DNA from: Fibrobacter sp. UWB11
Lineage (GTDB): Bacteria > Fibrobacterota > Fibrobacteria > Fibrobacterales > Fibrobacteraceae
Reading direction: 5' to 3'
Assembly (NCBI RefSeq): GCF_900143015.1
Contig: NZ_FSRT01000003.1
Location: 1 to 64,000 of the forward strand
Length of the DNA stretch: 64,000 bases
A program made the position numbers and the translations under genes. The notes below the pieces were generated by a model. That model worked only from the letters and a program-made list of their open reading frames with translations. It did not search any database and was not told the DNA's origin. The number at the start of each line of letters is the position of its first letter. Position 1 is the stretch's first letter. Below, one piece after another: positions 2,133-39,865 of the stretch.

Positions 2133-3863
2133 TTAGATTTTCTTCACCACAAACATGTGGCCAGGGGCCTTTGCAGGATCCAGCTTCACGTAGTTCTTGT
2201 TTCCACGCCAGACATAGCTTTCATCCGTCACGACATCCTTCAAGAAGAAGAACGAATCGTTCTCAAGTCCAAGCTTTGCCATGTCGAGTTCCACGATACC
2301 TTCTTGCACATGATCCATATCCATGTTGCACACGCAAAGAATCACGTCATTGCCAGACTTCTTGGAATAAACCATCAGCTGGTCATTCTGTGCATAATGG
2401 AATTCAAGGTTATCGTATTCCTGCAAAGCAGCATGTTCCTGACGGGCAACGTTCAGACGACGAACAAAGTCTTGAATACCCGGGCCAGACCAGTTGTGTA
2501 CTTTGTACTGATACTTTTCGCTATCGGCAAGTTCTTCCTTAATCGGGCTTGGAATGTTTTCGCAAAGTTCGTATCCGTTGTACATACCCGTGAGGCTCGA
2601 AAGCGTAGCAGCCAAGAAGTAGCGCTGTTTGAAGGCATTAGCACCTTTGTATGCAAGATACTTCGGGAAAATATCCGGCGTCGTCGGGAAGAAGATACCG
2701 CGCATGTATTCCTTAGCATTGGACTGCGTGAGTTCCTTCAGATACTGTTCGAATTCCCACTTGGCAGAGCGCCATGCGAAATACGTGTAGCTCATGTCAA
2801 AGCCAGACTTTGCCAAGCGATGCATCATCTTCGGGCGGGTGAACGCTTCAGCGAGGAACACAAGTTCCGGGCGTTTTTCCTTAACATCCGCAATCAACCA
2901 TTCCCAGAACGGGAACGGCTTGGTATGCGGATTGTCGATACGGAAAATTTCAATTCCCTTGTCCGCCCAGAACAAAATAATGTTCTCGATTTCCTTCCAG
3001 AGTTCCTTGTAGTTCTCGTTGTAGTAGTCGAACGGATAGATGTCTTCGTACTTCTTGGGCGGGTTTTCTGCAAACTTGATGCTGCCATCCGGTTCGTGGT
3101 AGAACCATTCCGGGTGAGACTTCACATACGGATGGTCCGGGCTGCAGTTAAGTGCGATATCAAGTGCAAGGCGCAGTCCCTTGGCACGCGCGGCTTTTGC
3201 AAAATGCTCAAAGTCCTTCATGGTCCCAAGTTCCGGGTCCACGTCATAATGACCGCCGTTCTTGTTACCGACAGCGTACGGGCATCCCGGTTCCAGCGGA
3301 TTGCCCTTCTTGTCAACCTTTGCATGCAGCGCGTTGTTTGCGCCCTTGCGGTTCGTAACACCAATCGGGTGAATCGGAACAAGATAAACCGTATCGAAAC
3401 CAAGGCCCGCAATGTAGTCGAGTTGCTTTTCGCAATCTTTCCAAGTGGCAGACTTCTTCGGGTCCGTGCCCTGGCTCTTCGGCCACATTTCATACCACGT
3501 ACCTACGCGACTGTACGTCGGGTCCACGCGGAGTTTCATCACCGGACTTTCTGTCGGAACATCCTTCGGTTCCTTGGTCCAAGCGCAAATCTTATATTCG
3601 TAATAGCCGATATTTCCGACCGTGAACGTACCTTCCCAAAGGTCGTTATCAACAAAGTGCATCGGAGCCTGTTCCCATTTTTTCTTGGAAACATGACGGT
3701 AAAAAATTGCAGCATCGTACTTTTCGTGACTGTGGCGGAAAATGTCGGCCTGCAAAGTCACGGTATCACCGGGTTCACGCTTAAGCATGAAACGACCGCC
3801 CTCGATGTTCGGGCGGATATTTTCAATAACGAGATTTTCTTTTAGAGTTGGAATAGTTGCCAT
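2133..3863 (-). CDS. glgE: Alpha-1,4-glucan:maltose-1-phosphate maltosyltransferase (GlgE, GH13_3)
   Basis: Cytoplasmic enzyme that transfers maltosyl units from maltose 1-phosphate to alpha-glucan, building glycogen-like polymer. The N-terminal part (about 10-115) matches the GlgE beta-sandwich domain (IENIRPNIEGGRF...GDTV). The GH13 barrel follows, with GGHYDVDPELGTMKDF and LALDIALNCSPDHPYVKSHP. The catalytic nucleophile is D310 in IFRIDNPHTKPF and the acid/base is E339 in FLAEAFTRP. The DNPHTKP and AEAFTRP motifs separate GlgE from other GH13 amylases. At 576 residues it is shorter than actinobacterial GlgE (about 660-700). It lies 20 bases after the lipoprotein gene and reads the same way, with no terminator seen between, so it may share that transcript. 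TreS and Pep2 partners are not in the window. Confidence 0.92.
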   Translation of the reverse strand: MATIPTLKENLVIENIRPNIEGGRFMLKREPGDTVTLQADIFRHSHEKYDAAIFYRHVSKKKWEQAPMHFVDNDLWEGTFTVGNIGYYEYKICAWTKEPKDVPTESPVMKLRVDPTYSRVGTWYEMWPKSQGTDPKKSATWKDCEKQLDYIAGLGFDTVYLVPIHPIGVTNRKGANNALHAKVDKKGNPLEPGCPYAVGNKNGGHYDVDPELGTMKDFEHFAKAARAKGLRLALDIALNCSPDHPYVKSHPEWFYHEPDGSIKFAENPPKKYEDIYPFDYYNENYKELWKEIENIILFWADKGIEIFRIDNPHTKPFPFWEWLIADVKEKRPELVFLAEAFTRPKMMHRLAKSGFDMSYTYFAWRSAKWEFEQYLKELTQSNAKEYMRGIFFPTTPDIFPKYLAYKGANAFKQRYFLAATLSSLTGMYNGYELCENIPSPIKEELADSEKYQYKVHNWSGPGIQDFVRRLNVARQEHAALQEYDNLEFHYAQNDQLMVYSKKSGNDVILCVCNMDMDHVQEGIVELDMAKLGLENDSFFFLKDVVTDESYVWRGNKNYVKLDPAKAPGHMFVVKKI

Positions 3864-3883
3864 AATGACTAGAATTTAGCAAA

Positions 3884-5152
3884 CTACTTAATTCTAATCA
3901 ACTGCACATCCTTGATCCAAATCGTTCTTTCGACCTTGCCCAGATTCAAATCTAGACGGGCATACGGATCTGTTTCCGCAGGCGAAAATTCGATTTCAAA
4001 CGACTTGCCCGAAGTCGAAACCTTGACGTGTTCCTGGAACCCATTCGTTTCACCATTGTAAATGGAATTACCCAAGCGAGCCGTCATCTCGCCATCGACA
4101 TTAGACCAAATGGTGAATATAAATTTGTACGTAGCACCAGCCACCACGGGAATGTTTTCGTGCAGCAGTTGCACGCTGTACGAGAAGTTTCCACCTTTAG
4201 TGACGTGCACACGCATGACGTTAGAGTTCTTTTCTTTTACGACAGAAGTATCGGCAACACCATTGAATTGCGTATGGAAAACCCAGTCATTGCCACCTTC
4301 TTTAAAGTCACCATTTGTAACAAAGTTCTTGTTCAAGGGCTCAACAATTTCCGCCCAGATATCATCTACAAAGCCGTCATATTCAGCACCATTAGCCGCC
4401 GTGTACTTGAAGCGCAGGCATTGGAAACTCGGCAAGAAACGATCATTCAGAGCATTCCAGAGTTTTTCATTTTCCGTCTTGCTAAAATGAATAATTCCAT
4501 CCTCACCAATCTTTGCAGAATCAAAATCAAGACCATCAACAAAGCGGTGTACGCGGAAAGCAACAGACAAATTCACTGCAGAATCCTGAATATCAATTTG
4601 CGCCTGGTTATACAGCAATTCAAACAACTGGATGTTGTTCATCTCGTAGACAAACGGAATTTCCTTGCCACCCTGGCGGATTCGCCCGTAAATGGAATTG
4701 ACACCACTCTTTTTGCCCACTTGGAAGCTGACTCCAATTTCTTTCAGAAGCCCGCCGTTCTTCAAATTGATATTGTAGAAAGCGTCCTTGACATAAGCTC
4801 CATCCGTAAACGAAATGGGGAGCACCGCAGCCGGGTCATCTTCGTACGGCCAAATTTGTTGCCCCTTATCCACATCGACAGACGTGCCCTTGTCATAGAA
4901 AGTACAATAAGACTTCACTTCACTCAAGGTCAAATCGAACGTATCGATAACGACCTTTTCATCTTCGGCAGCGACCTTGGAAAGCACCACCGGCTTCGCA
5001 TCCGAATAGTCAATCGAGAACTCGGCGGTAAGCCCGATATTGCTGATTTCAGGATTCCCAATTTCAATACCGGCCGTAGTGTCGGATTCAGAACACCCAG
5101 CAAAACACAGTGCCATAAGCACAGAACCGATTATTGAAATCAAAGAACGCAT
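3884..5152 (-). CDS. Lipoprotein with C-terminal CBM4/9-like domain
   Basis: Predicted outer-envelope lipoprotein: the signal ends LCFAGC and is followed by SESDTTAG. Residues about 30-270 match no family I recognise. The C-terminal third (about 275-420) looks like a jelly-roll carbohydrate-binding module of the CBM4/9 kind (NFVTNGDFKEGGNDWVFH, then YKFIFTIWS and a closing WIKDVQLIRIK strand), so binding of a polysaccharide is plausible but inferred. Two ATG codons lie side by side. The second (5150-5152) is preferred because GAGGAG sits at a workable distance, giving a TGATG overlap with the upstream stop and translational coupling to the TIGR02147-like gene. Confidence 0.75.
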   Translation of the reverse strand: MRSLISIIGSVLMALCFAGCSESDTTAGIEIGNPEISNIGLTAEFSIDYSDAKPVVLSKVAAEDEKVVIDTFDLTLSEVKSYCTFYDKGTSVDVDKGQQIWPYEDDPAAVLPISFTDGAYVKDAFYNINLKNGGLLKEIGVSFQVGKKSGVNSIYGRIRQGGKEIPFVYEMNNIQLFELLYNQAQIDIQDSAVNLSVAFRVHRFVDGLDFDSAKIGEDGIIHFSKTENEKLWNALNDRFLPSFQCLRFKYTAANGAEYDGFVDDIWAEIVEPLNKNFVTNGDFKEGGNDWVFHTQFNGVADTSVVKEKNSNVMRVHVTKGGNFSYSVQLLHENIPVVAGATYKFIFTIWSNVDGEMTARLGNSIYNGETNGFQEHVKVSTSGKSFEIEFSPAETDPYARLDLNLGKVERTIWIKDVQLIRIK

Positions 5153-13046: not shown

Positions 13047-13080
13047 AAAAAAGGCGGTCGCAACATGCGATACCGCCTCG
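13047..13080 (-). terminator. Terminator after the giant protein and 43-aa peptide genes
   Basis: On the minus strand AGGCGGT pairs with ACCGCCT across 13 bases and is followed by T6. It lies 38 bases beyond the peptide stop, so peptide and giant protein share one terminator. Confidence 0.85.
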
Positions 13081-13117: not shown

Positions 13118-13249
13118 TTAGTCATCCAAAATGATAATTTTCATTCTGTCCGGGTAGCTGGAATCAAGGAGTGCTCCCTGCACACGGATGGGAAACACCT
13201 TCATTTCAGGCCGTTTATATTTTCTCTTTTTCAATTCTAATTTCGTCAT
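13118..13249 (-). CDS. 43-aa peptide of the YxxPExxV-LLxxS family
   Basis: A short gene 12 bases after the stop of the giant secreted protein and before their shared terminator. It encodes 43 residues: a basic N-terminus (KLELKKRK), the core YKRPEMKV, then VQGALLDSS, and an acidic end (ILDD). Two other short genes, after the second giant protein (35089-35217 and 35201-35356), share the same core with identical spacing: Pro-Glu is followed 13 residues later by Leu-Leu, then x-[Ser/Gly]-Ser. Three independent copies with exact spacing make chance unlikely. I recall similar short hypothetical proteins from Bacteroides and Prevotella, function unknown to me. No ribosome site is evident; coupling to the upstream stop is likely. 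Confidence 0.7.
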   Translation of the reverse strand: MTKLELKKRKYKRPEMKVFPIRVQGALLDSSYPDRMKIIILDD

Positions 13250-13261
13250 TTTTCAACTGCT

Positions 13262-16200
13262 TTATTTTACAAACTTCTTTCCGTAGTAAGCTCCACGAGC
13301 CTTCTTTCCGTTGCCCACGATACGGCCCTTAAGGTCGTAAGTATGCGGCATAAAGTTCACACGGTACGGAGTCGTGCGGACATTGTGCTGCCCGATAACG
13401 GTCGTATGCTCTTCTTCGGTTTCTTCATCGTCGATAATCACGATGCGCATAGACGCCGGGAGTTCGTCAATAGAGCTTGTCGTAGCCGTCTTGGCGATGG
13501 CACCATTAGCACGGACAGCCGAAGCGGAAGATTTTTTGACAAGGTAAGCACGCATCGGATTAACCCATGCACCTGCAGCCGCCTTGACGAAATCACCTAC
13601 TTCTACACCGGTTTTTTTGTCTGCGTTGCCGGCAAATCCGTAAATGCTACCCAGTTCAGGATTGCCTTCTTCCCATTTCTTATAAGTCAAGCTTCCGCGG
13701 AATTCCCATTCCGAAGACTTGTTCGTACCATTGTCAACTGCATCCCTCGTGACTTCGAGCGTCACAGAGCCTTTGATATCGAACTTATCGCCATCCATCA
13801 AAACGATATACGGCGTGTAAGCGTTCAATGTCACATGTTCAGACGATGTGTTTTCCCAGACGACATGCATGCCGACAGCCTTTTGACCGTCTTCCACCAC
13901 GATTTTGCTGAATGCAAGGACTTGCTTTAGACCCTTGATTTGGCTCGTGCTTACGCTGAACGGCAAGACGATGGTAGAACGAGATTCTTTCGTAAAGCTA
14001 CGTTCGAACTTAACCGAATCGACCGTAATTTCTTCGTCAATATTCACAGTTCCGTCTTCACCATAATTAGCATCGATGGCTGCAATCGAATGTCCATCCT
14101 CATCCTTGAAAATTCCGACTGAGGCGAAATCTGCAGTCCTTTCGAGGATAGCAAAGTGCTTTTCAATATCACCCCTATAATTACCCATGCCGGTGATTTT
14201 CACATAAGGCGCGGTCGAAGATTTTTCCACATTTTCAAAACATTCCACGGTGTAGTCCGTCTTGACTTTAAGCGTCTTTTTGCCATCCTTCACGACAACA
14301 TCGGGGCAAACAGGATTACCCGTGTAAGCCTGAACCGCAATGTCATCGACAACGATATCCTCACTGGTAATCCACTTTAGAGGGGTAAGCATCTTGCCAC
14401 TGAGTGAAGATCCATAAAAATTAATGGGTACAGGCTCATCATAAATATTGCCATCTTCATCCTTAAAAGCTTTACCTTTGGCAATATCAATGGCCATGGA
14501 GGGGCTAGAAGCTGCTATACGGAGTTCCTCTGCGGTAATATGATCATCGGTGGAATTCCAACCTAAAGTGACTGACCATCCTTCCATTAGTGATGCATCT
14601 ACGGAGCCTCCATTTACCACTAAACCATAAGCATAGATTCGACCTACGTTTATATTACCGCCATTGATTGTAGCCCCATCACCATCTGCTACAATTTCAT
14701 CAAAAGTGAAATTACCACCATAGATGCACAAATTCTCAGAAATCCCAAGTTTTTTTGCATTGAACGAACCCGTGCCACGCGATTGCGTATGAATATAGAG
14801 AGCATCGAAATACATGTTTTGCGCTTCAACATTGAGTTTGGCGCCGTCAGCAAGGATAAGGTGAACATCATCACTGAATGAGAGAGTCTTTAAAGCTTCA
14901 CTTGAGAAGGTCACTTCGCCTTGCACAACATACCATCCACCGGTAAATCTTAAATAATGATTTTCATCAGGTTCACCGATATCGCTTGTAAGCAAGAAAT
15001 ATTCAGTCACTTTCTGCGTCTTGCCATCTTCATCGACATATTCAACAGGCTTCATATCGTCCCATATTGCATAGGCAGTTGTATGGCCAGAAATAGGAGC
15101 GGACCAGTCAAATACCTTGGTGCCTTCTTTCGTAGCAGCCCATCCGACGAATGTTGTACCTACACGGGTCGGATCTTCGGGCTTTGTAACGTGCGCTTCG
15201 CCATTTTCGTCAAAGGAAGCAATAGTCTCCTTAGGCTGGATGCCATCCTGGTTATCAATGTACACGATATAGCATGGCACTATAGGTTTATCCTTAAAGG
15301 CGTTGTTATATTCATAACGATGACAAATTTTGCCATTTTCTTCCTTAAAGGTCTTGCCATTTGCAATAGAAAAAGAATTCGCAGAACCTAAGGTATAACG
15401 GTCTTTTGCACTGCGCCAATCCAAGATAACATCATAAACCTTGAGTGTATATTCAGGTTCTTCTGCATCGGTATTAGAGGAAATATTCACGATACCGCTG
15501 TTAATATAAATTCTTCCGGGATAATATTCGGTTTTTACAGCAGGGCGACCAGCTGCATGGCCATTTCTTACGGTTACGATTCCACCGTTAAAGGTCACTT
15601 TTTGATGGGCGAGAATTGTACTGTTTGTTTCTGACGAATCATAGGCCGTTAGCTTACCCGTGCCAAGCGTCTGAGCATAAAACGTCAAGTTCCCTGAAGA
15701 TTGGATTACGGTCTTATCATATGCAATGGCTTTCAGTTCTGCGCCATCCGCAAGGATGATATGCGCATCCCCATTGAACGAGAGCGTGTAATCCTCAACA
15801 TAAACGTCTACGCTATCGTAGAAAGTATTATGCACCACATACCAAGCGCCCGGGAGGTTGACGACGCCTTCTTCTTCGTTGGCTTTGATAAGGTCGCTTG
15901 TGAGCACGGTATAACTATTTAGAGATTGAGATTGACCATTTTCGTCAATATATTCAAGCCTGTCTTTGTTCCATTGGGCAAAGAGGGTCATATTTTCAGT
16001 GACAGGGATATTGAAAAAATATCCCCTTGTGCCATCTTCAGTGGTGGACCAGCGATAAAACTTGGATCCGTTGCGGGTTGGAGCCGGCGGCTCAGCAATG
16101 TTGGCATAGCCTTGTTCGTTGAAGGTCGCTGCAGCAACCACAGGTTCCGTGCCGTTCAGCGCTTGGAATGTAACCGCATAGCACGGCTTAAGTGTCTTGC

Positions 16201-17653
16201 CGTTAAGCGAGCTTAAATATTCATCTTTTTCCCATAGCGCATCATATACGGTTTCCGTCGAATAGACTTTACCGGTATAGGCTTTGCCGTCTTCATCTCC
16301 AAAGGCTTTGCCTTCGGCTATTTGAACAAAACTCCCCGGTTGATGACCACCAGCCACGATAAACATTCCAACTTTGATGGAATCAGTTTTTTTACGCCAA
16401 TCCAAAGTGATTGAACCAGACTCAACTCTACCAACATTGTAAGAACCACCGTTAAATATAACACGACCTTTACTAGCAAACAATTGACCACCTACTTTCA
16501 CGGAAATTCCGTTTATAATAAGATCTTTATTCCTTCCTGCACCTATATCACCTTGTACGTATTCATAGCTACCCTTCTGACTATAAACATTCAATTTTCC
16601 AGAGCCATTCTTCTGACCATAAATATTCAAGTTTCCTTGGCTTTTTATACCGAAGAGAATATCCTTTTCATACTCCACAACGTTAAATTCGGCATTATCC
16701 GCAATGATAAGGTTAACATCCTCGTCCCCAAAGTCAATTTGGCCCTCAAAAGTTACACGATCGCTCACTACATACCAGCCACCCGGCAATTTCGTTGACT
16801 CCTTAATGTTCGGTAAAAGTGTATCGAGGATGACATAATCCTCAACACTTCGCTCGACTCCGTTTTCGTCCATGTAGAAGAAAGGAGTCTTTGCGGGCAC
16901 AAGTGTTTTGTCTAGGATGCTATAAATATTGTCAACAGATAATTGGCCGCTGTAAAATTTGCCGTTTTCATCCTTGACGTATAAATCATTCTTTATGGTG
17001 AAGGTGTTTGCATGAATTACATTGCGCACTCTAAAAGAATCTGTGGGATTTTTCCAACCAAGCGTAATCGATGTTGCGTCAAGTTCTTCTACATCGACAT
17101 TACCACCATGAAATTCAAAATTTTGAACATCTATGCGTACATTATCTTTATGACTATCGTTTTTAGGATTATTATAATCCGTTGTGACGTGACCGCCATA
17201 AATAGCTATAGAGACATTAGATGCTGTAGTAGGGTCAATACCATTTTTGACATTTAATACACCCGTACCTAAAATGGGTTTATAGTAGCTAGTTGATCCT
17301 ACGAAAATGGATATAGAAGGAACATCTGAAAGTCCTAAATCTTTTTTATAATATAATTTGTTGCAGTTTAAATAAGCTCCATCCATTAAAATAATCTTGA
17401 TACTACCCTCGAACCCGATATTCTTATCACCCAGATCTACGGTGTCATATACCACATAAATACCGTTATTCTGCATAAGCGTCATATGGTCAATGTCTTT
17501 TGAGAGATAATTAAAAAGAGATACGGGCTCCCTTTCTCCGTTTTCGTCAATATAAAAGATATATCCCCACGAGGTTGCCGCCATAAGCAGGGTAAAGATG
17601 AGCACAAGCCCCAAACGGAGCGAACGGAATGGATGTAATAGATAACTGGTCAT
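13262..17653 (-). CDS. Giant secreted modular repeat protein with type IX-like C-terminal signal
   Basis: About 1,463 residues. The start is the ATG at 17651-17653, which begins a clean signal peptide (basic HPFRSLR, then LGLVLIFTLLMAATSWG); upstream in-frame codons are unlikely. It has four similar modules, each opening Y-I/V-DENG, then GGWYVV or GAWYVV, a FxGDVHLILADGAxL strand block and a beta-helix-like run of 'NGG' turns. Between modules lie Listeria-Bacteroides (Flg_new, InlB-like) repeats such as PTRNGSKFYRW and PTRVGTTFVGWAATKEG. A YTGNPVCPDVVV...GMGNYRG segment resembles an MBG/Ig-like unit. The last 330 residues match those of the giant at 35381, including NPMRAYL and a YDLKGRIV...KKARGAYYGKK tail resembling a type IX sorting signal. 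Likely a cell-surface adhesin or matrix protein; the substrate is unknown. A peptide gene follows. Confidence 0.82.
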   Translation of the reverse strand: MTSYLLHPFRSLRLGLVLIFTLLMAATSWGYIFYIDENGEREPVSLFNYLSKDIDHMTLMQNNGIYVVYDTVDLGDKNIGFEGSIKIILMDGAYLNCNKLYYKKDLGLSDVPSISIFVGSTSYYKPILGTGVLNVKNGIDPTTASNVSIAIYGGHVTTDYNNPKNDSHKDNVRIDVQNFEFHGGNVDVEELDATSITLGWKNPTDSFRVRNVIHANTFTIKNDLYVKDENGKFYSGQLSVDNIYSILDKTLVPAKTPFFYMDENGVERSVEDYVILDTLLPNIKESTKLPGGWYVVSDRVTFEGQIDFGDEDVNLIIADNAEFNVVEYEKDILFGIKSQGNLNIYGQKNGSGKLNVYSQKGSYEYVQGDIGAGRNKDLIINGISVKVGGQLFASKGRVIFNGGSYNVGRVESGSITLDWRKKTDSIKVGMFIVAGGHQPGSFVQIAEGKAFGDEDGKAYTGKVYSTETVYDALWEKDEYLSSLNGKTLKPCYAVTFQALNGTEPVVAAATFNEQGYANIAEPPAPTRNGSKFYRWSTTEDGTRGYFFNIPVTENMTLFAQWNKDRLEYIDENGQSQSLNSYTVLTSDLIKANEEEGVVNLPGAWYVVHNTFYDSVDVYVEDYTLSFNGDAHIILADGAELKAIAYDKTVIQSSGNLTFYAQTLGTGKLTAYDSSETNSTILAHQKVTFNGGIVTVRNGHAAGRPAVKTEYYPGRIYINSGIVNISSNTDAEEPEYTLKVYDVILDWRSAKDRYTLGSANSFSIANGKTFKEENGKICHRYEYNNAFKDKPIVPCYIVYIDNQDGIQPKETIASFDENGEAHVTKPEDPTRVGTTFVGWAATKEGTKVFDWSAPISGHTTAYAIWDDMKPVEYVDEDGKTQKVTEYFLLTSDIGEPDENHYLRFTGGWYVVQGEVTFSSEALKTLSFSDDVHLILADGAKLNVEAQNMYFDALYIHTQSRGTGSFNAKKLGISENLCIYGGNFTFDEIVADGDGATINGGNINVGRIYAYGLVVNGGSVDASLMEGWSVTLGWNSTDDHITAEELRIAASSPSMAIDIAKGKAFKDEDGNIYDEPVPINFYGSSLSGKMLTPLKWITSEDIVVDDIAVQAYTGNPVCPDVVVKDGKKTLKVKTDYTVECFENVEKSSTAPYVKITGMGNYRGDIEKHFAILERTADFASVGIFKDEDGHSIAAIDANYGEDGTVNIDEEITVDSVKFERSFTKESRSTIVLPFSVSTSQIKGLKQVLAFSKIVVEDGQKAVGMHVVWENTSSEHVTLNAYTPYIVLMDGDKFDIKGSVTLEVTRDAVDNGTNKSSEWEFRGSLTYKKWEEGNPELGSIYGFAGNADKKTGVEVGDFVKAAAGAWVNPMRAYLVKKSSASAVRANGAIAKTATTSSIDELPASMRIVIIDDEETEEEHTTVIGQHNVRTTPYRVNFMPHTYDLKGRIVGNGKKARGAYYGKKFVK

Positions 17654-17771
17654 AGTATTTTGTACCGTTTTTGTTGAATAAATTTTTACAAAGTACAATG
17701 CTAAAAAAATTACGGAACCAGTCCAATAGCCCAAACGGGTTATATTTTCGTAATACTTTTATAAGAAAGCA

Positions 17772-27320: not shown

Positions 27321-30300
27321 ATGCACATTTCACAACGTGCATCCAGGAAGGCGCTGTTTTCAGCGTGTTTAATTCTTCCATTTTTCATGTACGCTTGCGG
27401 TGGCGACAGCGGCAGCAGCGCGGCAGAAAACGACAACGACATTGAAGAAGATGACGAAGACAACCTCGGTGGTGAAAATTTCAAAGATACCTCCATTACC
27501 GCCACTACTTACAATTCCAATGTCGGTGTTGTAAGCATCATCAAAGACGAAATTTTAGACGTAAAAAGCGGTAATTCCTACAAAACAATCCAATTCGGCC
27601 CTTACACATGGATGGCCGAAAACGCCAACTACAAAGTTTCCCGCAGCGCCTGCTATGACGAAGATACGGACAACTGCAAAAAACTCGGGCGCCTGTATCA
27701 AAACTCGAACGCCTCCCAAGCATGCCCAAGCGGTTTCAAAATTCCATCAGAAGCCGACTTCAAGTACATCGTCCGTTTCGCAAGCAACATCACCAACCGC
27801 GATTTCGGATTCAATCCGCAAATGTCCGGCTACTGCGAAACCGTAAATGGCGAACTCCAGTGCAGCCGTGGAGGCAAAGAAGCATACTACCAAACCTCCG
27901 ATTTCAATATTTTCAGAGTCAACGGTAATGGCAAATACGATTTCCCTGAAGCCAATTACAGCGCCTATTACGCTCTCCGTTGCGTAAAAGTTTCGCACTT
28001 TGTCGAAACCGAAAAGCAACTCCCCATTTGCGATTCCACCACATACAATAGCCTCAGCAACTTCTACATTGCAAGCAAAGGATACAACTACCGTTGCAAC
28101 AGAAAAAAATGGGTCGAGGCCGACGACAACAATTCCTGCCCTTCCGCGGAACGTGGCGAGAAGCATTACTACAAAGACACCTTATTCGTTTGCCGAGGCA
28201 CATGGCAATACGCAACGATGAACGATGTAGATGCCAGCTGCACCATAAAAAATCAGTGGGAAGTCCGTAAGCTGAACGGACAAAGCTACATCTGCGACGA
28301 TTCCACCTGGCGCAAGCCCTCCACCATCGAAACCGCCATCGGGCTTTGCAATCTCGACAGTTTAAAGAAGACAAAAGCCTACATCGACGATGACGACACC
28401 ACAGGTTACATCTGTGATTCTACAGGTTGGCGCAAGACCGTGCTTATCGACTCCATTGGCACATGTACTGCCAAAAATCAATGGGCACTCAAAATAAACT
28501 ACGGGAAAAAATACATCTGCGATGATTCCACTTGGCGTAAGCCCAGCACCATCGAAGATTCCATCGGGCTTTGCACTCCTGACAGCCTGAAGAAAATGAA
28601 AACCTTGAAAACCAAGTCGGATTCCACGCATTACTTCTGCGACACAACCGGCTGGCGCAAGGCAGTACTCATTGACTCCATCGGCCAGTGCACCAAAGAC
28701 AGGCAATGGGAGCAAAAGAAAAATTACAGCAAGAACTACCTCTGTAGGGATTCCAGCTGGCGTAAAGCAACCGCCCGCGAAGATTCCATCGGATTCTGCA
28801 TTCCGAGCAAAAACGGCAAAATCGATTCACTCAAGAGTTCCAGCAGCTACGAATCTTACTATTGCGATTCCACAAGCTGGCGCAGCACCGTCTTGGCGGA
28901 CTTCCATGGCACCTGCGATTCCACAAAGTTCTACAGCACCGTTGAATACAAAGGAAGCACCTATGCTTGCCGCACCACAAAATCGTGGACAACTTTGAGT
29001 AGCACCGAAAAGAATCTTGGCGTTTGCACCCCAAAGATTTACGGTAAAATCGACTCCTTAAAATCTAGCGGTACAAGCTACATTTGCGATTCCACAGGTT
29101 GGCGCAGCATTGTCTTGGAAGATGTCGCCGGGAAATGCGATTCGACCAAGTTCTATAACACCGTCGAATACAAAGGAAGCTCTTACGCTTGCCGCACCAC
29201 AAACAAATGGACAACCCTAAGCAGCACCGAAAAAAGCATCGGCATTTGCATGCCCAAGATTTACGACAAAATTGACACCATAAAATCAAGTGGAACAAGT
29301 TACATCTGCGATACCACAGGTTGGCGAACAGCGACTGTTTATGACTATTACGGTGCATGCGATTCCACAAAACTCTATACATCAAAGACAGTCAGCGGAA
29401 TTACATACGGCTGCCAAAATGCCAAATCTTGGGAAAAGCTCACGCACCCCACAACGGTATTCGGATTCTGCACGCCCAAACTTAAAGGCACCTTGAAAGC
29501 AGACAGCACAAACAAGATTTACATTTGCGACTCGCTTTGGAGAGTAGCAACAAAAGACGAAGTTCTCGGCGTATGCGAAGAAGACAACGAAGGCCTCGAA
29601 AAAACTTACAGTTCCATCAAGTACGCCTGCATCAACAAGGAATGGCGCACCTACACAAGTCTAGAGAAATCTATAGGCCTGTGCTACAAAGGAACATTGG
29701 GCAAAATAGCATCCGACAATAACGTCACCTACATCTGCAAAGAAGACGGATGGAAAAAATACGCCATCGAAGATGCTTATGGAAAATGCACTAATTCTAT
29801 AAAGGGAAAGATTGTCGAATTCGGAAATGAAACGTACGGCTGTGCGGGCTATTACTGGAGAAAACTGGACTCCCTTGATTTAACCTTCGGCATGTGTCTA
29901 GAAAGAGATGAACACAAAATATACGAATACAATGGAAACCACTATTTTTGCGACGACGATGAATGGGAAATCGCACCTTATTGGAACGTTCTCGAAAAAT
30001 GTACCAAGGCCATAGAAGGGAAAATTGTAAAATACCGCGAAAAACAATACTATTGCTCCCAGCCCGAAGGCTGGCAAGAATACGACACGCTTGATAAAGA
30101 ACTTGGAAAGTGCGATTCCAAAAGTTATGGAATAAGCAAAGTCTATAACGGATATAATTACGGTTGCGTCACTGAAAATGGTAATGACTCAAAACGTCAT
30201 AAATGGCGAAAAGAGAACGATTTGGACAAAGCTTTAGGATTCTGCTACGGGAATACATATGATTGGACGGTTTACGAGGGAAAAGATTACGTATGCAATG

Positions 30301-31301
30301 ATGACGGAGAGTGGTACACAGCCTCATCTCTTTGGGCCATGTATTCTATCTGCGATGACAGATTTCCCGCAAGACTCGGTAAAACAGTAGGCTTTAAAGG
30401 TCAGCACTATTATTGCAATGTCGATATGGAACCATCCAATTCAAAAACTGATGGCTGGTACGCATTACAACCCATCGATAGCATCAAAGGCCCCTGCTAC
30501 TTCAACAAACTTGGCGACACATTGACTTTTGAAGGGAAATATTATTATTGCGGTAAAAACACTTCTAAAGTTTACAGATGGATTCCTGCAACCAAGATGA
30601 CCGAATATTACGGCAAATGCACATCATCCAACGACGGCGTAACCGTTTCATTTGAAGGTAGCCATTACCAATGCAACGATGGTCTATGGCATAGAGATCC
30701 AACCGACTATGTATCCATAACAGACTCCAGAGACGGAAAGCAATACAAGACCATCAAAATTGGTACACAAGAATGGATGGCCGAAAACTTGAAGTACGAA
30801 GTTGAAGGCAGCTGGTGCGGCGGAAACCTCAATGGATGCGTCAAGTATGGCCGCCTATACAGCTGGGACATGACCATGGGTCTTCCAAAAAATTACAACC
30901 CAACTCTAGTAGACATCGAAAATCCTGAAAATCATCAAGGTATTTGCCCTGACGGATGGCGCGTACCCTCAAGTACAGATTGGGCAACACTGTTAAAAGA
31001 ATGCAGCGTAGCCGAACTCAGAACAACTCTTACAGGATACGATTCTGAACATACCGATTTCTGCGGATTCACAGCAATACCGACGGGTTACGAAAACGTT
31101 AAACAAACAAACAATACTAACTACACAGAAGAACTCAGTTCCATCGGTAGCGAAATTGCTTTCTGGAGTTCAGAACAGAACGACAAGGACTTCGCAACAG
31201 CGGCATCACTCTCCGTGAAAACCAATATCACAAACCCGTTATATTCAAGGCTTAAGAGAAACGGCTACTCCATCCGTTGCATAAAATCGGGTTCTAATTA
31301 A
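27321..31301 (+). CDS. FISUMP-domain lipoprotein with about twenty Cys/Trp repeats (copy 1)
   Basis: About 1,326 residues. The lipoprotein signal ends FFMYAC (Cys26), then an acidic Gly/Asp/Glu linker. Two domains of the Fibrobacter succinogenes major paralogous type (FISUMP, TIGR02145/PF09603) stand at the ends: an N-terminal, partly diverged one (about 70-220; YKTIQFGPYTWMAENANYK, ACPSGFKIPSEADF) and a complete C-terminal one (about 1125-1326; YKTIKIGTQEWMAENLKY, GRLYSWDM, ICPDGWRVPSSTDW, RNGYSIRCIKSG). Between them lie roughly twenty tandem units of 36-40 residues of the form G-x-C-x(15-22)-Y-x-C-(D)-x(2-4)-W-R/K. Two Cys per unit suggest disulfide-linked beads. Exported, surface-anchored; ligand unknown. 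The second copy starts 9 bases later. Confidence 0.87.
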   Translation: MHISQRASRKALFSACLILPFFMYACGGDSGSSAAENDNDIEEDDEDNLGGENFKDTSITATTYNSNVGVVSIIKDEILDVKSGNSYKTIQFGPYTWMAENANYKVSRSACYDEDTDNCKKLGRLYQNSNASQACPSGFKIPSEADFKYIVRFASNITNRDFGFNPQMSGYCETVNGELQCSRGGKEAYYQTSDFNIFRVNGNGKYDFPEANYSAYYALRCVKVSHFVETEKQLPICDSTTYNSLSNFYIASKGYNYRCNRKKWVEADDNNSCPSAERGEKHYYKDTLFVCRGTWQYATMNDVDASCTIKNQWEVRKLNGQSYICDDSTWRKPSTIETAIGLCNLDSLKKTKAYIDDDDTTGYICDSTGWRKTVLIDSIGTCTAKNQWALKINYGKKYICDDSTWRKPSTIEDSIGLCTPDSLKKMKTLKTKSDSTHYFCDTTGWRKAVLIDSIGQCTKDRQWEQKKNYSKNYLCRDSSWRKATAREDSIGFCIPSKNGKIDSLKSSSSYESYYCDSTSWRSTVLADFHGTCDSTKFYSTVEYKGSTYACRTTKSWTTLSSTEKNLGVCTPKIYGKIDSLKSSGTSYICDSTGWRSIVLEDVAGKCDSTKFYNTVEYKGSSYACRTTNKWTTLSSTEKSIGICMPKIYDKIDTIKSSGTSYICDTTGWRTATVYDYYGACDSTKLYTSKTVSGITYGCQNAKSWEKLTHPTTVFGFCTPKLKGTLKADSTNKIYICDSLWRVATKDEVLGVCEEDNEGLEKTYSSIKYACINKEWRTYTSLEKSIGLCYKGTLGKIASDNNVTYICKEDGWKKYAIEDAYGKCTNSIKGKIVEFGNETYGCAGYYWRKLDSLDLTFGMCLERDEHKIYEYNGNHYFCDDDEWEIAPYWNVLEKCTKAIEGKIVKYREKQYYCSQPEGWQEYDTLDKELGKCDSKSYGISKVYNGYNYGCVTENGNDSKRHKWRKENDLDKALGFCYGNTYDWTVYEGKDYVCNDDGEWYTASSLWAMYSICDDRFPARLGKTVGFKGQHYYCNVDMEPSNSKTDGWYALQPIDSIKGPCYFNKLGDTLTFEGKYYYCGKNTSKVYRWIPATKMTEYYGKCTSSNDGVTVSFEGSHYQCNDGLWHRDPTDYVSITDSRDGKQYKTIKIGTQEWMAENLKYEVEGSWCGGNLNGCVKYGRLYSWDMTMGLPKNYNPTLVDIENPENHQGICPDGWRVPSSTDWATLLKECSVAELRTTLTGYDSEHTDFCGFTAIPTGYENVKQTNNTNYTEELSSIGSEIAFWSSEQNDKDFATAASLSVKTNITNPLYSRLKRNGYSIRCIKSGSN

Positions 31302-31310
31302 GGAGGCAAT

Positions 31311-34300: not shown

Positions 34301-34970
34301 GAAAGAAGGCAGCAAAGGAATAATGAACGGGAAAAACTTTATTTGCTACGATGGTGTTTGGATTAGAGCCCCTGCCGATTACGGTTCCATCACAGACGCT
34401 AGAGACGGGAAAAAATACAAGACCATCAAAATAGGCAAGCAAGAATGGTTGGCAGAAAACCTGAATTACAATGTCGATGGAAGCTGGTGCGGAGGCACTC
34501 AAAACGGATGCGAGACTTTCGGACGCCTTTACAGCTGGAACATGGCTGTAGGGCTCCCTAAAAACAACAATCCAAGCATTGTAGACATTCCTGATCCTGA
34601 TTCACATCAAGGCATTTGCCCTAGCGGGTGGAGGCTACCGACAACCATCGATTGGAATCAATTGCTTCAAGAATGCAGTCCCGCCGATCTCCGCAAGGAT
34701 CTTGCCAAAACCGACTCCGCAAACACGGACATCTGTGGTTTTTCAGCATTACCAGCAGGCTACATCAACATTTTTTACAGAAATGGAATTGACTACACAG
34801 AAGAACTCACAATCAGTAATTACAACGATAACCGATTCTTCTGGAGCTCTGAACAAATGACAGATTCAACGGCAATGAAATTGTATTTCACAAGCAACAG
34901 GACTTCAAACAACGGTTTCAATCAAGAGATGAAAAAAAATGGTCTTGCAGTCCGCTGCATAAAGAAATAA
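31311..34970 (+). CDS. FISUMP-domain lipoprotein with Cys/Trp repeats (copy 2)
   Basis: About 1,219 residues, paralog of the upstream gene. The translation start region is almost the same (AAGGAGG, then MHISQR), the lipoprotein signal ends FYISAC, and the N- and C-terminal FISUMP domains are conserved (YKTIQFGPYTWMAENANYK; YKTIKIGKQEWLAENLNY...CPSGWRLPTTIDW). The middle repeats have diverged more and are fewer, with a different final set (ERENESTTYQEKLYVCRN, then WTQAT). The first 300 residues are nearly collinear with copy 1, pointing to duplication followed by repeat turnover. It is cotranscribed with copy 1 and ends at a plus-strand terminator. Confidence 0.87.
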   Translation: MHISQRSFQKAFFSLCLILPFYISACGSDDGSNATSPTTNEDDDDNLGGDAFKDTSITGTQYNSNAGIVNIIKSEILDEKSGKTYKTIQFGPYTWMAENANYKIFRSACYDEDTDNCKIYGRLYQSSSASQACPSGFKVPTEADFKYMVSFTNNIADPAFGFDPQMSGFCETVNGELQCSRGGKEAYYQTSDFNIFRANSKGKYDFPDANYSAYYALRCMKVSHFVENDKQLPICDSTTYSNLSEFFVASKGSNYRCNRKKWVEADDNSCPSSERGEKHYYKDSLYICNYSWELATMNDVDASCTKKNQWEVRKLNGQSYICDESTWRKPSSIESAIGLCTPDSINKMKSEINKGDTTDYVCDSTGWRKAVLIDYIGPCDSSKYYTVKKHQDTSYACRTTKTWTTLNSTEKEIGVCTPKQKGKIDSIMTKNDTTHYYCDSTSWRKATLVELFGKCDSTKYFSTVKFEKTTYACRKNNNWEKVTSVEDSLGFCTPDKKGKLDTIGTSSYYYCDDSGWRKAVADDYLGVCDSTFKYKMKYLWGNDYGCKDGPKWEYLEYPESDLGYCVPEFKGLVRIDRYATSYICDTKWRTATKAEALGTCSDENEGKKDGFKENNKTTWYVCAFDSWREKTTQDDSLGVCTKQKLKKTGKVGSTEYICTKTGWVIPTLVLVHDSCTAEREKELVQYQNKTYVCRSKRWTEVTGIESINGLCTTERENESTTYQEKLYVCRNEKWTQATDLEVEDGICTTKREGKIVVYSSTNTIYQCKSQTWTSITAATALGNCTETNKGETKTLDKVDFFCSQNKTWKVVTDLYKQFGECTCDTRGKTVTLKGDKYGCIGTRNCANPTWVKYTPVIEALGLCDAYDSKLKWGVYNGTDYICRTNYSEWETASTEWGNYGRCNELNSSLYGTFIGAEGQRAYCDEGLFSSYFDDGWYVLTALDSVDGVCTKKRVNDTISYQGVSYYCKTKKAEHYTEGYAWIPAPSPDVFFGACNLAKEGSKGIMNGKNFICYDGVWIRAPADYGSITDARDGKKYKTIKIGKQEWLAENLNYNVDGSWCGGTQNGCETFGRLYSWNMAVGLPKNNNPSIVDIPDPDSHQGICPSGWRLPTTIDWNQLLQECSPADLRKDLAKTDSANTDICGFSALPAGYINIFYRNGIDYTEELTISNYNDNRFFWSSEQMTDSTAMKLYFTSNRTSNNGFNQEMKKNGLAVRCIKK

Positions 34971-35088: not shown

Positions 35089-35217
35089 TTAATCTCTATA
35101 TATCAGGATTGTGTCGGGGGGATCAAAGTGACTTGACTGCAAAAGCGGCTCTTGCTGTTCAAGCACGACCACCTTGACTTCAGGAGCCACATAATCCTTC
35201 TTAGACGAATTCGTCAT
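35089..35217 (-). CDS. 42-aa peptide of the YxxPExxV-LLxxS family
   Basis: Encodes 42 residues: MTNSSKKD, core YVAPEVKVVV, then QQEPLLQSS and a tail ending TILIYRD. The tail resembles that of the peptide at 13118 (KIIILDD). The start codon lies inside the end of the preceding peptide gene in another frame (17-base overlap), suggesting translational coupling. The spacing from Pro-Glu to Leu-Leu is identical to its two relatives. Too short for ordinary gene callers. Confidence 0.68.
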   Translation of the reverse strand: MTNSSKKDYVAPEVKVVVLEQQEPLLQSSHFDPPDTILIYRD

Positions 35218-35356
35218 CAGACACCCCATCGTTCAGGCCGAGCTGATTGCCGTAATCTTCAGGTTCATCACTACCATTGAGCAAGCAACCTTCATGTTCG
35301 TACTTGATTACGAGCATTTCGGGAGCAACATATTTCTTTTTCATTTCAATAGTCAT
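35201..35356 (-). CDS. 51-aa peptide of the YxxPExxV-LLxxS family
   Basis: Encodes 51 residues: MTIEMKKK, core YVAPEMLVI, then HEGCLLNGS, followed by a longer acidic tail (DEPEDYGNQL...SDDEFV). It starts 24 bases after the stop of the giant protein and has a ribosome site (AAGGAA, about 8 bases before the ATG). It is the first of two tandem peptide genes here. It contains one Cys just before the Leu-Leu pair. No signal peptide is evident. Function unknown; its position after a type IX-tailed giant is shared with the 43-aa peptide at 13118. Confidence 0.7.
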   Translation of the reverse strand: MTIEMKKKYVAPEMLVIKYEHEGCLLNGSDEPEDYGNQLGLNDGVSDDEFV

Positions 35357-35380: not shown

Positions 35381-38300
35381 TTACTTTATAACCTTCTTGC
35401 CATAGTAGGCTCCACGAGCCTTGCGAGCATCCTTGCCATAGGCACGTCCCTTCAAGTCAAACACACGACCAGTGGAGCGTTGCAACCTGAAATCTCCTGT
35501 GTGAGTATTGAAGTGTCCTATGACAGTTGTACGTTCTTCATGATTTTCGCCATCAACATCGCGAAGAATGGTAATTGATTCCGGCAATTCGATAGAAGAA
35601 ACCGTTTTGTTCCAATCTGCAACAGAATAGCGGAGAGCCATCTGCGGACCCGGCAACGGATTGTATCTCATGTAAGCGCGCATGGGATTAATATAAGCCC
35701 CAGCTTTAATCCTTACAAATTTACCAATAGTAAAGCCATCGACCGCTTTTCCGACAAATCCATAAACAGCGCGACCATTGAGCAGTTCTTCATCGTCTTC
35801 CGTCCACTTTTTGTACTGGTACACACCGACAAATTCCCAATCGCCATATCTAACAGCAAATTCTGGAGCATTTGTCACAAGTTTCACAGCGCCACGAACT
35901 TCAATGGACGTATGCGTTTCATCCAACTGCACCATACAAGGCGTATTTGCCTTGAGAAGCTTACTATATTCGCAACCTTCGACAAGATTGTCGCAAACAT
36001 AAGCCGAAGGTTCAGTAGGCTTATCCCAGAAAGCTTTCGTATGAGCCTCAAGCCTTTTAATCTTACCCGTGGTCTCATCCTTAACGGTATCAATACGACC
36101 AAATTCATCAATAAGCTTAGCTCCAATCAAGTTATCTGCATAGACATCAAACGGGAACATAAGCGTCGCATACCTACCAGAGGTAAACGTTCTGTTGAAT
36201 ACAACCTCATCCACCGTAGTTTCCTGTTCAATGATAACGGGAAGATCTTTTTCGAAATTACCATCAAGCGTAGCAATCGCGTTATCGTTTTCATCTTTTG
36301 CAATCACAAGGGCTGGCTGATATGGATACACATATTTGTTTGCAATATCAAGTTGCTGTTCTGCAGAGAGCGTTCCCGTAAAGGAATTGCCTTCGCTATC
36401 GTAGTAAGTGAGGCCATCATCAATCACGACTGGGCCCACATAGCTACTGGCATTAATAGAAACACCAGAAAGATTAATTGCTTTATTCTCAGAGTTGTTA
36501 GCGTAAATACCATTGCAACCATTTTCGGCCGAAACAGTCACCGTTCCCCCCTTCAGATTAACATCTCTCCAAAAGGAACCGATGCCAAAGCACACATAAC
36601 CACTATATTCACCATAATTACTTGAAGTCGCCTTGACATCGCCACCGGCAATCGTAACTTCCTTAGTAGCACCAATAGCGAATCCACCGGCAGCGGTAAC
36701 GGAACCGCCATTAATGTCAACATATCCATTAGTGACAAAACCCGCTCCGGTTTCAACATGGTTACCTATAGCGCGAGCTTCAACAGTACCGCCATTGACA
36801 ACAATGGAATCCATAGAACGAACCGCTTCATAACCAGAGGCGTTTATAACGCCATCATTGATCTTAACTAAGCGACTTCCCCAAATGCCATGATTATTGC
36901 CAGAAGCCGTGATGGAACCATTATTGATAACCAAATCATTTTCAGAAGAAATACCGCTACCCCTGCTAGTGGCCTTAATAGAACCACCATTGATTATCAA
37001 AGCGTCCTTAGCATAAATAGCATCGGCATAAGATGATATTTCGAACACACCCTGATTTGCACCCGTACTTTGGGCATAGATGGCAAGGTTATTGAACGAG
37101 GTCTGGAATTCAGTAACATCGTTTTCAACAGTCAGTTTGGCGCCATCCGCAAGAATCAAGCTGACATTCAAATCACCTAGATATATAGGATACAAAATAT
37201 CTTCTTTGCCACCCTTAGATGGAGTCTTCAAATCAACATCACCCGTGCCAACCTTAATAATTGGAGAATAAGGATCCTTCGGATTGTAAGGAGACCTAGC
37301 CAAGAACGCAAAGTTGTTTTTATAAGAAACTTCACCCTTGACCAAAACCCAGCCACCATACATAAACACTTCGCCGTCAGTACATTCGTTACCGACAAGT
37401 TCGTAATCAGGAACAACTCTCTGTTCTTTACCATTTTCATCGAGATACGTGACTTCAGTCAAATCCTCCCACAAGCCATAGGCAATAGCCTCATCATTGA
37501 AATTCGTAAAGTCAAACGGGACCTCAAAAGACTTATCGGCATACCACCCGAGGAACTTTTTCCCATAACGAGAGGGATTACAGGGAACTTCGCCTGGATT
37601 CCATACAATTTCAAACGCATTCAAACCATCATCAAATAAGACTCTTTTCACAGGAACAATCGTTTTGCTAGAGACATCAAGTTGCTGTTCTGCAGAGAGC
37701 GTTCCCGTATAGAAATTATCTTCGCCATCGGTGTAAGCGAGGCCATAATCAATCACGACTGGGCCCACATAGTTACTGGCATTAATAGAAACACCAGAAA
37801 GATTAATTGCTTTATTCTCAGAGTTGTTAGCGTAAATACCATTGCAACCATTTTCGGCCGAAACAGTCACCGTTCCCCCCTTCAGATTAACATCTCTCCA
37901 AAAGGAACCGATGCCAAAGCACACATAACCACTATATTCACCATAATTGCTTGAAGTAACCTTGACATCGCCTCCGGCAATCGTAACTTCCTTAGTAGCA
38001 CCAATAGCGAATCCACCGGCAGCGGTAACGGAACCGCCATTAATGTCAACATATCCATTAGTGGCAAAACCCGCTCCGGTTTCAACATGGTTACCTATAG
38101 CGCGAGCTTCAACAGTACCGCCATTGACTACAATGGAATCCATAGAACGAACCGCTTCATAACCAGAGGCGTTTATAACGACATCATTGATCTTAACTAA
38201 GCGACTTCCCCAAATGCCATGATTATTGCCAGAAGCCGTGATGGAACCATTATTGATAACCAAATCATTTTCAGAAGAAATACCGCTACCCCTGCTAGTG

Positions 38301-39865
38301 GCCTTAATAGAACCACCATTGATTATCAAAGCGTCCTTAGCATAAATAGCATCGGCATAAGATGATATTTCGAACACACCCTGATTTGCACCCGTACTTT
38401 GGGCATAGATGGCAAGGTTATTGAACGAGGTCTGGAATTCAGTAACATCGTTTTCAACAGTCAGTTTGGCGCCATCCGCAAGAATCAAGTTGACATTCAA
38501 ATCACCTAGATATATAGGGTACAAAACATCATCTTTGCCACCCTTAGATGGATTCTTCAAATCAACATCACCCGTGCCAACCTTAATAATTGGAGAATAA
38601 GGATCCTTCGGATTGTAAGGAGACCTAGCCAAGAACGCAAAGTTGTTTTTATAAGAAACTTCGCCCTTGACCAAAACCCAGCCACCATACATAAACACTT
38701 CGCCGTCAGTACATTCGTTACCGACAAGTTCGTAATCAGGAACAACTCTCTGTTCTTTACCATTTTCATCGAGATACGTGACTTCAGTCAAATCCTCCCA
38801 CAAGCCATAGGCAATAGCCTCATCATTGAAATTCGTAAAGTCAAACGGGACCTCAAAAGACTTATCGGCATACCACCCGAGGAATTTTTTCCCATAACGA
38901 GTGGGGATACAGGGGACTTCGCCTGGATTCCATACAATTTCAAACGCATCCAAACCATCATCGAATACAATTCTTTTCACAGGAGCAATCGTTTTGCCAG
39001 CGATTAAAGCAATCTGGTCCTCATTAAGAATACCACTAAAAGTATTACCTAGATCATCCCCATAAACAGAACTAAAGATAACTGTATAGCCATCCCCCTC
39101 AGGAATAGTATATGAACGAGCCCAAACCGTCGCACCACCAAAGACGATATCGGCTGTTTCATTTATAATAATTCCACCATCGGCAACAACAGAACCATTA
39201 TGAAGATGAGCAGTACCAGCATCAAAGGCGCCACCTATTGAAACTGAACCATTATAAATTACAAACATATCCGTTTTAATAGCGCCACCTATCGTAACTG
39301 AACCATCATTAATTACAACGTTTCCTCCAGCTTCAACAGCACCACTTATCGAAACAGAACCATTATTAAATAGAACAAAACCAGCTTTAATAGCACCGCC
39401 TATCGTAACTGAACCACCCCAAACGTCAAAATAATTAGAGACTGTTAAAGAAGGTACTTCAAATTTGCCCATTTCTTCGCCCATACTTTGGACAAAGATG
39501 TCAAGATTGCCAAATTCAACACATCCTTCATCACCGTTTTTTACGGTCAACTTAGCTCCATCCGTAAGAATAAGATTGACATAATCCCCTTTAAAATTGA
39601 AATCACTACAATCGTAAGATACCTCGCCCTTGACCACATACCACCCCGACGACGCGGAAAACGGGACTCCCGCCGTGCTGCCAGAACTGGAAGCGCTGCT
39701 AGGACTGGAAGCAACAAGTTCAGTGTATCCCATAAGCGTCTTCAATTCACCGGACTCGTCAAGATACTCGACCGGATCCAACGCCCATGCGGTTGATACG
39801 GCAAGCAAAGATACGAGCAGAATTAGCCCCGACCGAGCTTTTGCAAATATGCTTGGATTATTCAT
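35381..39865 (-). CDS. Giant secreted modular repeat protein with tandem 443-residue duplication
   Basis: About 1,494 residues. Signal peptide (SGLILLVSLLAVSTAWA). Module 1 (about 30-290) contains short 'GSVSIGGA' beta-helix-like turns. It is followed by Flg_new/InlB-like units (PTRYGKKFLGWYADKSFEVPF) and two nearly identical 443-residue blocks. Each block has LDENGKEQ, GGWVLVKGEVSY, VNLILADGAKLTV or VSLILADGAKLTV, NLAIYAQSTGANQGVFEISS and a string of NGG turns. The last 330 residues share a plan with the giant at 13262 (RTFTSGRYATLMFPF, NTPCMVQL, YKKW, NPMRAYM) and end FDLKGRAYGK...KARGAYYGKKVIK, resembling a type IX sorting tail. Likely surface adhesin or scaffold. A ribosome site (AAGGAAACCAGGA) precedes the ATG. 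Two peptide genes follow. Confidence 0.83.
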   Translation of the reverse strand: MNNPSIFAKARSGLILLVSLLAVSTAWALDPVEYLDESGELKTLMGYTELVASSPSSASSSGSTAGVPFSASSGWYVVKGEVSYDCSDFNFKGDYVNLILTDGAKLTVKNGDEGCVEFGNLDIFVQSMGEEMGKFEVPSLTVSNYFDVWGGSVTIGGAIKAGFVLFNNGSVSISGAVEAGGNVVINDGSVTIGGAIKTDMFVIYNGSVSIGGAFDAGTAHLHNGSVVADGGIIINETADIVFGGATVWARSYTIPEGDGYTVIFSSVYGDDLGNTFSGILNEDQIALIAGKTIAPVKRIVFDDGLDAFEIVWNPGEVPCIPTRYGKKFLGWYADKSFEVPFDFTNFNDEAIAYGLWEDLTEVTYLDENGKEQRVVPDYELVGNECTDGEVFMYGGWVLVKGEVSYKNNFAFLARSPYNPKDPYSPIIKVGTGDVDLKNPSKGGKDDVLYPIYLGDLNVNLILADGAKLTVENDVTEFQTSFNNLAIYAQSTGANQGVFEISSYADAIYAKDALIINGGSIKATSRGSGISSENDLVINNGSITASGNNHGIWGSRLVKINDVVINASGYEAVRSMDSIVVNGGTVEARAIGNHVETGAGFATNGYVDINGGSVTAAGGFAIGATKEVTIAGGDVKVTSSNYGEYSGYVCFGIGSFWRDVNLKGGTVTVSAENGCNGIYANNSENKAINLSGVSINASNYVGPVVIDYGLAYTDGEDNFYTGTLSAEQQLDVSSKTIVPVKRVLFDDGLNAFEIVWNPGEVPCNPSRYGKKFLGWYADKSFEVPFDFTNFNDEAIAYGLWEDLTEVTYLDENGKEQRVVPDYELVGNECTDGEVFMYGGWVLVKGEVSYKNNFAFLARSPYNPKDPYSPIIKVGTGDVDLKTPSKGGKEDILYPIYLGDLNVSLILADGAKLTVENDVTEFQTSFNNLAIYAQSTGANQGVFEISSYADAIYAKDALIINGGSIKATSRGSGISSENDLVINNGSITASGNNHGIWGSRLVKINDGVINASGYEAVRSMDSIVVNGGTVEARAIGNHVETGAGFVTNGYVDINGGSVTAAGGFAIGATKEVTIAGGDVKATSSNYGEYSGYVCFGIGSFWRDVNLKGGTVTVSAENGCNGIYANNSENKAINLSGVSINASSYVGPVVIDDGLTYYDSEGNSFTGTLSAEQQLDIANKYVYPYQPALVIAKDENDNAIATLDGNFEKDLPVIIEQETTVDEVVFNRTFTSGRYATLMFPFDVYADNLIGAKLIDEFGRIDTVKDETTGKIKRLEAHTKAFWDKPTEPSAYVCDNLVEGCEYSKLLKANTPCMVQLDETHTSIEVRGAVKLVTNAPEFAVRYGDWEFVGVYQYKKWTEDDEELLNGRAVYGFVGKAVDGFTIGKFVRIKAGAYINPMRAYMRYNPLPGPQMALRYSVADWNKTVSSIELPESITILRDVDGENHEERTTVIGHFNTHTGDFRLQRSTGRVFDLKGRAYGKDARKARGAYYGKKVIK
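36347..39004. repeat. Perfectly in-frame tandem duplication, two 1,329-bp units
   Basis: Units 36347-37675 and 37676-39004 abut exactly and are almost identical; differences include a few bases near the outer ends and single changes such as AAATAT/AAACAT. 1,329 bp is 443 codons, so the frame is preserved. High identity means the duplication is recent or kept alike by gene conversion. Confidence 0.93.

Follow-up and report, generated by a model that had tools for sequence, protein, structure and literature searches.

Predicted RiPP precursors encoded beside type IX-tailed surface proteins in Fibrobacter and Prevotella

Results

Short genes follow two giant surface-protein genes in Fibrobacter sp. 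UWB11

The window, i.e., the whole 64,000-nucleotide stretch of Fibrobacter sp. UWB11 DNA that was analyzed, carries on its minus strand two genes for giant surface proteins, one followed by a single short gene and the other by two. Giant surface protein 1 (13262..17653) contains List_Bact repeats (PF09479) and likely starts at the ATG at 17653, which is followed by a hydrophobic signal-like stretch; the open reading frame call extends to a TTG at 17734. Its partner, peptide 1 (13118..13249, minus strand), begins at an ATG 12 bases downstream of the giant 1 stop codon and comprises 43 residues (MTKLELKKRKYKRPEMKVFPIRVQGALLDSSYPDRMKIIILDD), predicted to form an LPP-like RiPP precursor with a leader reaching to about residue 28 (Y11xxP14, L27L28), an invariant Ser31 and a variable end (YPDRMKIIILDD). 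A terminator-like hairpin, recognized by consensus match only, lies 3' of peptide 1 (13058..13070, minus strand), an arrangement consistent with a single transcript for giant 1 and peptide 1.

Giant surface protein 2 (35381..39865, minus strand) has a Sec-type signal and matches Cthe_2159 and List_Bact repeats. In its translation, a segment of ~400 aa, starting ...FEIVWNPGEVPC, is present in two nearly identical copies. Two peptides accompany it on the same strand: peptide 2 (35201..35356; 51 aa), the first downstream of the giant, and peptide 3 (35089..35217; 42 aa, or 46 aa from an ATG at 35229), which overlaps the end of peptide 2. An ortholog of peptide 1 differing at one residue is found in genome G067 (locus L026), and locus L029 of genome G045 holds a diverged ortholog of peptide 2 as well as an ortholog of peptide 3.

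The three peptides share the motif KKxYxxPE[MV]xV...LLx[SG]S, aligned without gaps, except that the KK of peptide 1 lies one residue farther from the Tyr. The first-pass annotation of this DNA, made from the sequence letters, had described the gene of 43 codons, its distance from the giant and the following terminator, and the recurrence of its core in two short genes after the second giant, all of which our analysis confirms. It had further given the distance from Pro-Glu to Leu-Leu as exactly 13 residues. The spacing is indeed gapless in 3/3 window peptides (YxxPE-x11-LL-x-x-S), and 13 is correct when counted from the Pro to the first Leu, but from the Glu the distance is 12.

On the opposite strand, two adjacent giant genes (27321-34970; 1326 and 1219 aa), each ending in a Fib_succ_major domain, have no neighboring peptide match. 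The window genes between giants 1 and 2 were considered as RiPP enzymes and rejected; those that could be named are recJ, holB-like, M23, ftsX, tsaD, birA-like and Fib_succ_major genes.

The C-terminal tails resemble short type IX signals of Prevotella

Both giants end in a short tail, YDLKGR...GAYYGKK in giant 1 (13268..13399, minus strand; profile A5, E 9.7e-17) and FDLKGR...GAYYGKK in giant 2 (35387..35524, minus strand; profile A5, E 2.2e-17). No curated Pfam or NCBIfam tail model matches these tails at E up to 10. Tail profiles built from Prevotella and from Fibrobacter match each other, with best E values of 1e-15 to 1e-18, and the tails thus appear type IX-like through their relation to the short tails of Prevotella rather than through any curated model. 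The short type IX C-terminal signals described for Prevotella intermedia (PMC11969387) are, in the available part of that report, alike in length (~45 aa) and motif order; unlike the pairing described here, that part of the report mentions no peptide partner.

Both giants also contain, before the tail, an unnamed domain of ~200 aa (residues about 1210-1410 of P0003, the protein encoded at 35381-39865, and the same region of P0002), with the motif STivLPF...ANTPYlv...GxYxYkxW...VYGFA...FVKxGaGA...PlRAYL, for which a convincing Pfam match was not found. Most Fibrobacter cargo linked to a peptide carries this domain, as do 20/58 peptide-linked tailed Prevotella proteins.

The peptides form a conserved family with a hypervariable end

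None of the three window peptides had a match in Pfam or NCBIfam. An exact DNA pattern gave 14 matches in the UWB11 genome against 12 for a reversed control, i.e., no excess over chance, and was dropped in favor of profiles. A profile built from the three window peptides recovered eight further members in the same genome (E 1e-7 to 2e-4), every one inside a short open frame. With a wider profile, the family was found in 74/80 Fibrobacter genomes, with matches down to E 1e-19 across the genus, and in one genome of another genus of the same family; among the 168 genomes of the phylum, no others had a member. Members are also present in a second phylum, the Bacteroidota, where the family is common in Prevotella.

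Family members share the leader KKxYxxPxMxVV...LLxxS and end in a hypervariable, acidic region. The stretch beyond the Ser, 9 to 30 residues long, varies freely in length as well as in sequence, and some classes of end recur, such as PDRM, YCDELG and APxP...LA. The zero entropy of Y, P and Ser in the alignment used for the selection analysis arises because the search expression itself fixed these positions; K, Y, P, L and S are nevertheless invariant in the profile-gathered alignment A2, which was assembled free of that condition. Across 126 non-independent pairs with uncorrected distances, pN/pS of the leader is 0.30 in frame, whereas the two alternative frames give 0.82 and 2.5. The peptide coding frame is under purifying selection.

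Peptide genes adjoin genes for tailed surface proteins

In the UWB11 genome, all 11 peptides adjoin a tailed gene, ten following it (among them two that are second in a tandem pair) and one directly preceding it. Conversely, the tail profile gave ten matches in this genome, of which the nine strong ones each lie next to a peptide and the tenth does not; because the profile was trained on peptide-adjacent tails, other kinds of tail are under-counted. Of 56 distinct peptides sampled across Fibrobacter, 52 lie next to a tailed frame.

Bacteroidota peptides were collected from named genomes with the DNA pattern KKxYxxP-x12-LLAGS, a sample biased by its fixed LLAGS, and the matches came overwhelmingly from Prevotella and relatives. 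Here 59/94 peptides follow a tailed gene, 15/94 precede a lipoprotein gene and 20/94 lie beside neither. Among frames of 200 aa or more whose 3' end lies just before a peptide, 60/74 carry the tail as against 26/535 elsewhere (p 2e-48), a contrast inflated by the fact that all 16 tails used to train the Bacteroidota profile came from peptide-adjacent genes. Peptides lacking a tailed gene are often directly followed by a lipoprotein gene with an SCSNDD-like lipobox (L096, L098, L104, L108, L117, L160 and others), and because of these neighbors the peptides may partner surface proteins in general. The C-terminal module of the cargo genes, domain plus tail, is common to both phyla, and similar peptide ends of the PDRM class are found beside cargoes with different tails.

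Among 298 Bacteroidaceae genomes, peptides were detected in 84, and 80 of these encode the T9SS protein SprA. At the threshold used, no peptide was found in 107 of the 187 T9SS-positive genomes (p 2.7e-15, phylogeny not corrected for), which indicates that the peptides are not a general requirement of the T9SS. In the peptide-less Fibrobacter genome G001, the 44% examined contained no tail of the peptide-linked type.

The link to type IX-tailed surface genes suggested by the first-pass annotation is thus strongly supported, and extends far beyond the two loci on which it was based. The outcomes named beforehand as speaking against such a family were looked for and did not come true: the frame is conserved in relatives, pN/pS is low, and the peptides are enriched next to tailed genes.

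A discrete RRE and its operon accompany the peptides

Most Fibrobacter genomes carry one copy of a discrete PqqD-like RRE (PF05402; E 4e-13 in UWB11). It belongs to an operon that also encodes an NTP transferase (PF14907), a putative HprK-like kinase, an archaeal-type signal-peptidase-like protein of the S24/S26 type and an MsbA-like ABC exporter. In many genomes a tailed surface gene, together with one or two peptides, stands at the head of the operon, and the order CTD-peptide-NTP-HprK-S26-RRE-ABC is complete or largely so in the loci retrieved. In UWB11, the kinase, peptidase, RRE and exporter genes lie together at 219350-222607 of C3, the contig that carries the window (locus L214), with no peptide nearby, and two NTP transferases are encoded on C1, away from the operon.

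Annotation of the operon proteins varies in strength. The operon copies of the NTP transferase match PF14907 with E 6e-45, and the exporter carries PF00664 and PF00005 (ABC match E 1e-24). The Prevotella peptidase exceeds the cut-off of Peptidase_S24 (PF00717); the Fibrobacter copies fall below the curated cut-offs, and Ser29, His67 and Asp82 are invariant in 15 sequences. The kinase has an invariant P-loop, SGTGKST, and matches PF07475 below the cut-off (E about 0.01-0.02). AlphaFold models of the peptidase (pLDDT 45, three sequences) and the kinase (pLDDT 31, two sequences) were unusable. The RRE profile gave weak matches to the solved lasso RREs 6jx3 and 9x90 (E 2e-3).

The peptide and the RRE co-occur. 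Among the 80 Fibrobacter genomes, 70 have both, four the peptide only, two the RRE only and four neither (p 6e-4), and at completeness of at least 95% the corresponding numbers are 34, 0, 0 and 2 (p 0.0016), both p values being from Fisher tests that ignore phylogeny. Neither G001 nor G029, both near-complete and peptide-less, has the discrete RRE; G071 lacks it too, and the NTP transferase is likewise missing from three peptide-less genomes. The exceptions are G022, G027, G006 and G062, three of them incomplete assemblies, which have peptides but no discrete RRE that we could find, and G024 and G031, which have the RRE but no peptides.

The RRE operon is present in Prevotella too, where L143, L280 and L284 combine it with peptides and L143 and L280 also with a tailed gene. 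At L143, the NTP transferase gene is split into two frames (3775-4866), by a frameshift or an assembly error. The operon copies of Fibrobacter and Prevotella form separate groups in an unrooted tree, with 57% identity across and 64% within the groups, compatible with a single old transfer or a common origin. An RRE is found in 29/30 peptide-bearing Bacteroidota genomes; PqqD is present in 274/298 Bacteroidaceae genomes, including most of those lacking peptides or a T9SS, and being near-universal there it is uninformative about the peptide. Its presence in peptide-less Bacteroidaceae argues that other, unrecognized precursors probably exist in that family.

Peptides and operon resemble those of linear polyphosphorylated peptides

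Linear polyphosphorylated peptides (LPPs) form a RiPP family whose description in 2026 confined it to Bacillota (Popov et al. 2026, PMC13381572). Experiments show that their YxxP leader is bound by LppB, that the leader is cleaved in an RRE-dependent manner and that Ser3 of the core is repeatedly phosphorylated; the catalytic residues of the LPP peptidase LppS are S29/H68/D93 (PMC13381572). The system described here has in common with LPPs a discrete RRE, an SpI-like Ser-His-Asp peptidase, a kinase that here is putatively HprK-like, an NTP transferase and an MsbA-like exporter, together with short precursors that combine a YxxP leader, a conserved Ser after the leader and a variable C-terminus. 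In neither system was a macrolactam cyclase found, the search here being a motif scan of the RRE loci.

There are also differences. Whereas LPPs were assigned to Bacillota and their clusters lie in capsule loci, the system here occurs in two other phyla, and its precursors are dispersed in the genome, each next to a type IX-tailed surface gene as a rule. The leader ends in LLxxS with no FET, and the spacing from Tyr to Ser is 20 rather than 18. The LPP precursor motif YxxPxVLxHQxIxFETxxS is not matched by the peptides, in which the HQ spacing and FET are absent; YxxP, the hydrophobic residue at +2 and the final Ser are present. Because the full leader consensus fails and the system is known from genes alone, we call it LPP-like rather than a member of the LPPs.

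Paeninodin-type phosphorylated lasso peptides (NF033524) likewise have a KKxYxxPx[hydrophobic]xV leader, an RRE, a kinase and an NTP transferase, but typically carry Trp where the peptides here have Tyr (PMC13381572), and the leader scores below the curated cut-off of the NF033524 model (E 6e-4, 19.4 bits versus 27). A motif scan of the 41 RRE loci found no frame with the lasso cyclase motif SGGxDS of asparagine-synthase-like enzymes.

Discussion

Comparative genomics gives good support to the view that the peptides are RiPP precursors, and we consider it likely that each is the precursor of an LPP-like RiPP, processed by the operon and co-encoded with a surface protein. From LPP biochemistry we infer which reactions take place, in which sequence, and where the peptide is cut. 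The PqqD-like RRE would bind the YxxP leader, the HprK-like kinase would phosphorylate the invariant Ser of LLxxS, and the NTP transferase would modify the peptide further. The archaeal-type signal-peptidase-like enzyme would remove the leader, with a predicted cut after LL that would make the Ser the third residue of the core (+3), matching LPPs, and the MsbA-like exporter would send the core out. One central operon would serve up to about a dozen dispersed precursors. Since nearly every precursor lies directly beside a short-tailed surface gene, the modified peptide and the protein probably arrive at the cell surface together, where the peptide may bind, decorate or signal alongside its partner. 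That the product acts with surface proteins at the cell surface is speculative, and we would as readily accept as doubt it.

The strongest alternative, which we regard as a real though lesser possibility, is that the peptides yield a diffusible product, a signal or an antimicrobial, independent of the neighboring protein, the pairing being due to regulation that the two genes share or to recombination that spreads tail and peptide together as a cassette. The C-terminal module common to both phyla is what a mobile unit would be expected to leave, PDRM-class ends beside cargoes with different tails fit the same picture, and so do the Bacteroidota peptides found before lipoprotein genes or beside neither kind of gene. 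However, adjacency to the tailed gene, without exception in UWB11 and nearly so in the Fibrobacter sample, is too regular for loose co-regulation.

It is improbable that the peptide is a never-modified chaperone, export factor or regulator specific to type IX cargo. Tight linkage to tailed genes and the lack of such tails in the examined part of a peptide-less genome would suit that role, but the leader matches RRE-binding leaders, the peptides occur together with a RiPP-type operon, often at its head, their C-terminal part is hypervariable, and many T9SS-positive genomes have no peptide at the threshold used. Of the functions listed in the first-pass annotation, a processed ligand comes closest, given the RiPP-precursor appearance of the peptides, the discrete RRE and the LPP-like gene set; we see no sign of a role as chaperone or secretion helper. 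Classical lasso peptides with an unlinked cyclase are more improbable still: the YxxP leader, discrete RRE, HprK-like kinase and NTP transferase do occur in paeninodin clusters, but the cyclase motif is missing from the RRE loci scanned, an archaeal-type signal-peptidase-like gene occupies the position expected for the lasso B2 gene, and the leader end has no Thr, so that a lasso system is rejected on present evidence. Spurious open reading frames or 3' untranslated remnants, an idea favored by the shortness of the genes and by how many of them gene callers miss, can be dismissed in view of the frame-specific constraint and the profile matches across the genus and into a second phylum.

Returning to the LPP-like precursors, their arrangement may reflect a dedicated RiPP pathway that, in Fibrobacter and in Prevotella, provides individual surface proteins secreted by the type IX system with a modified partner peptide, each gene having its own precursor and all being served by one central operon; for this fuller proposal we see the balance as even. 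The literature covered, in which most subscription journals are not included, yielded no publication that connects type IX secretion with RREs/PqqD or LPPs. The proposal would bring together type IX secretion and RiPP biosynthesis, between which that literature records no contact, and would extend LPP-like chemistry, thought to be confined to Bacillota, to abundant bacteria of the rumen and the mouth. The analysis identifies hundreds of short genes of a kind often overlooked in annotation, and the surface proteins of Fibrobacter and Prevotella offer a concrete setting in which the role of LPP-like peptides can be tested.
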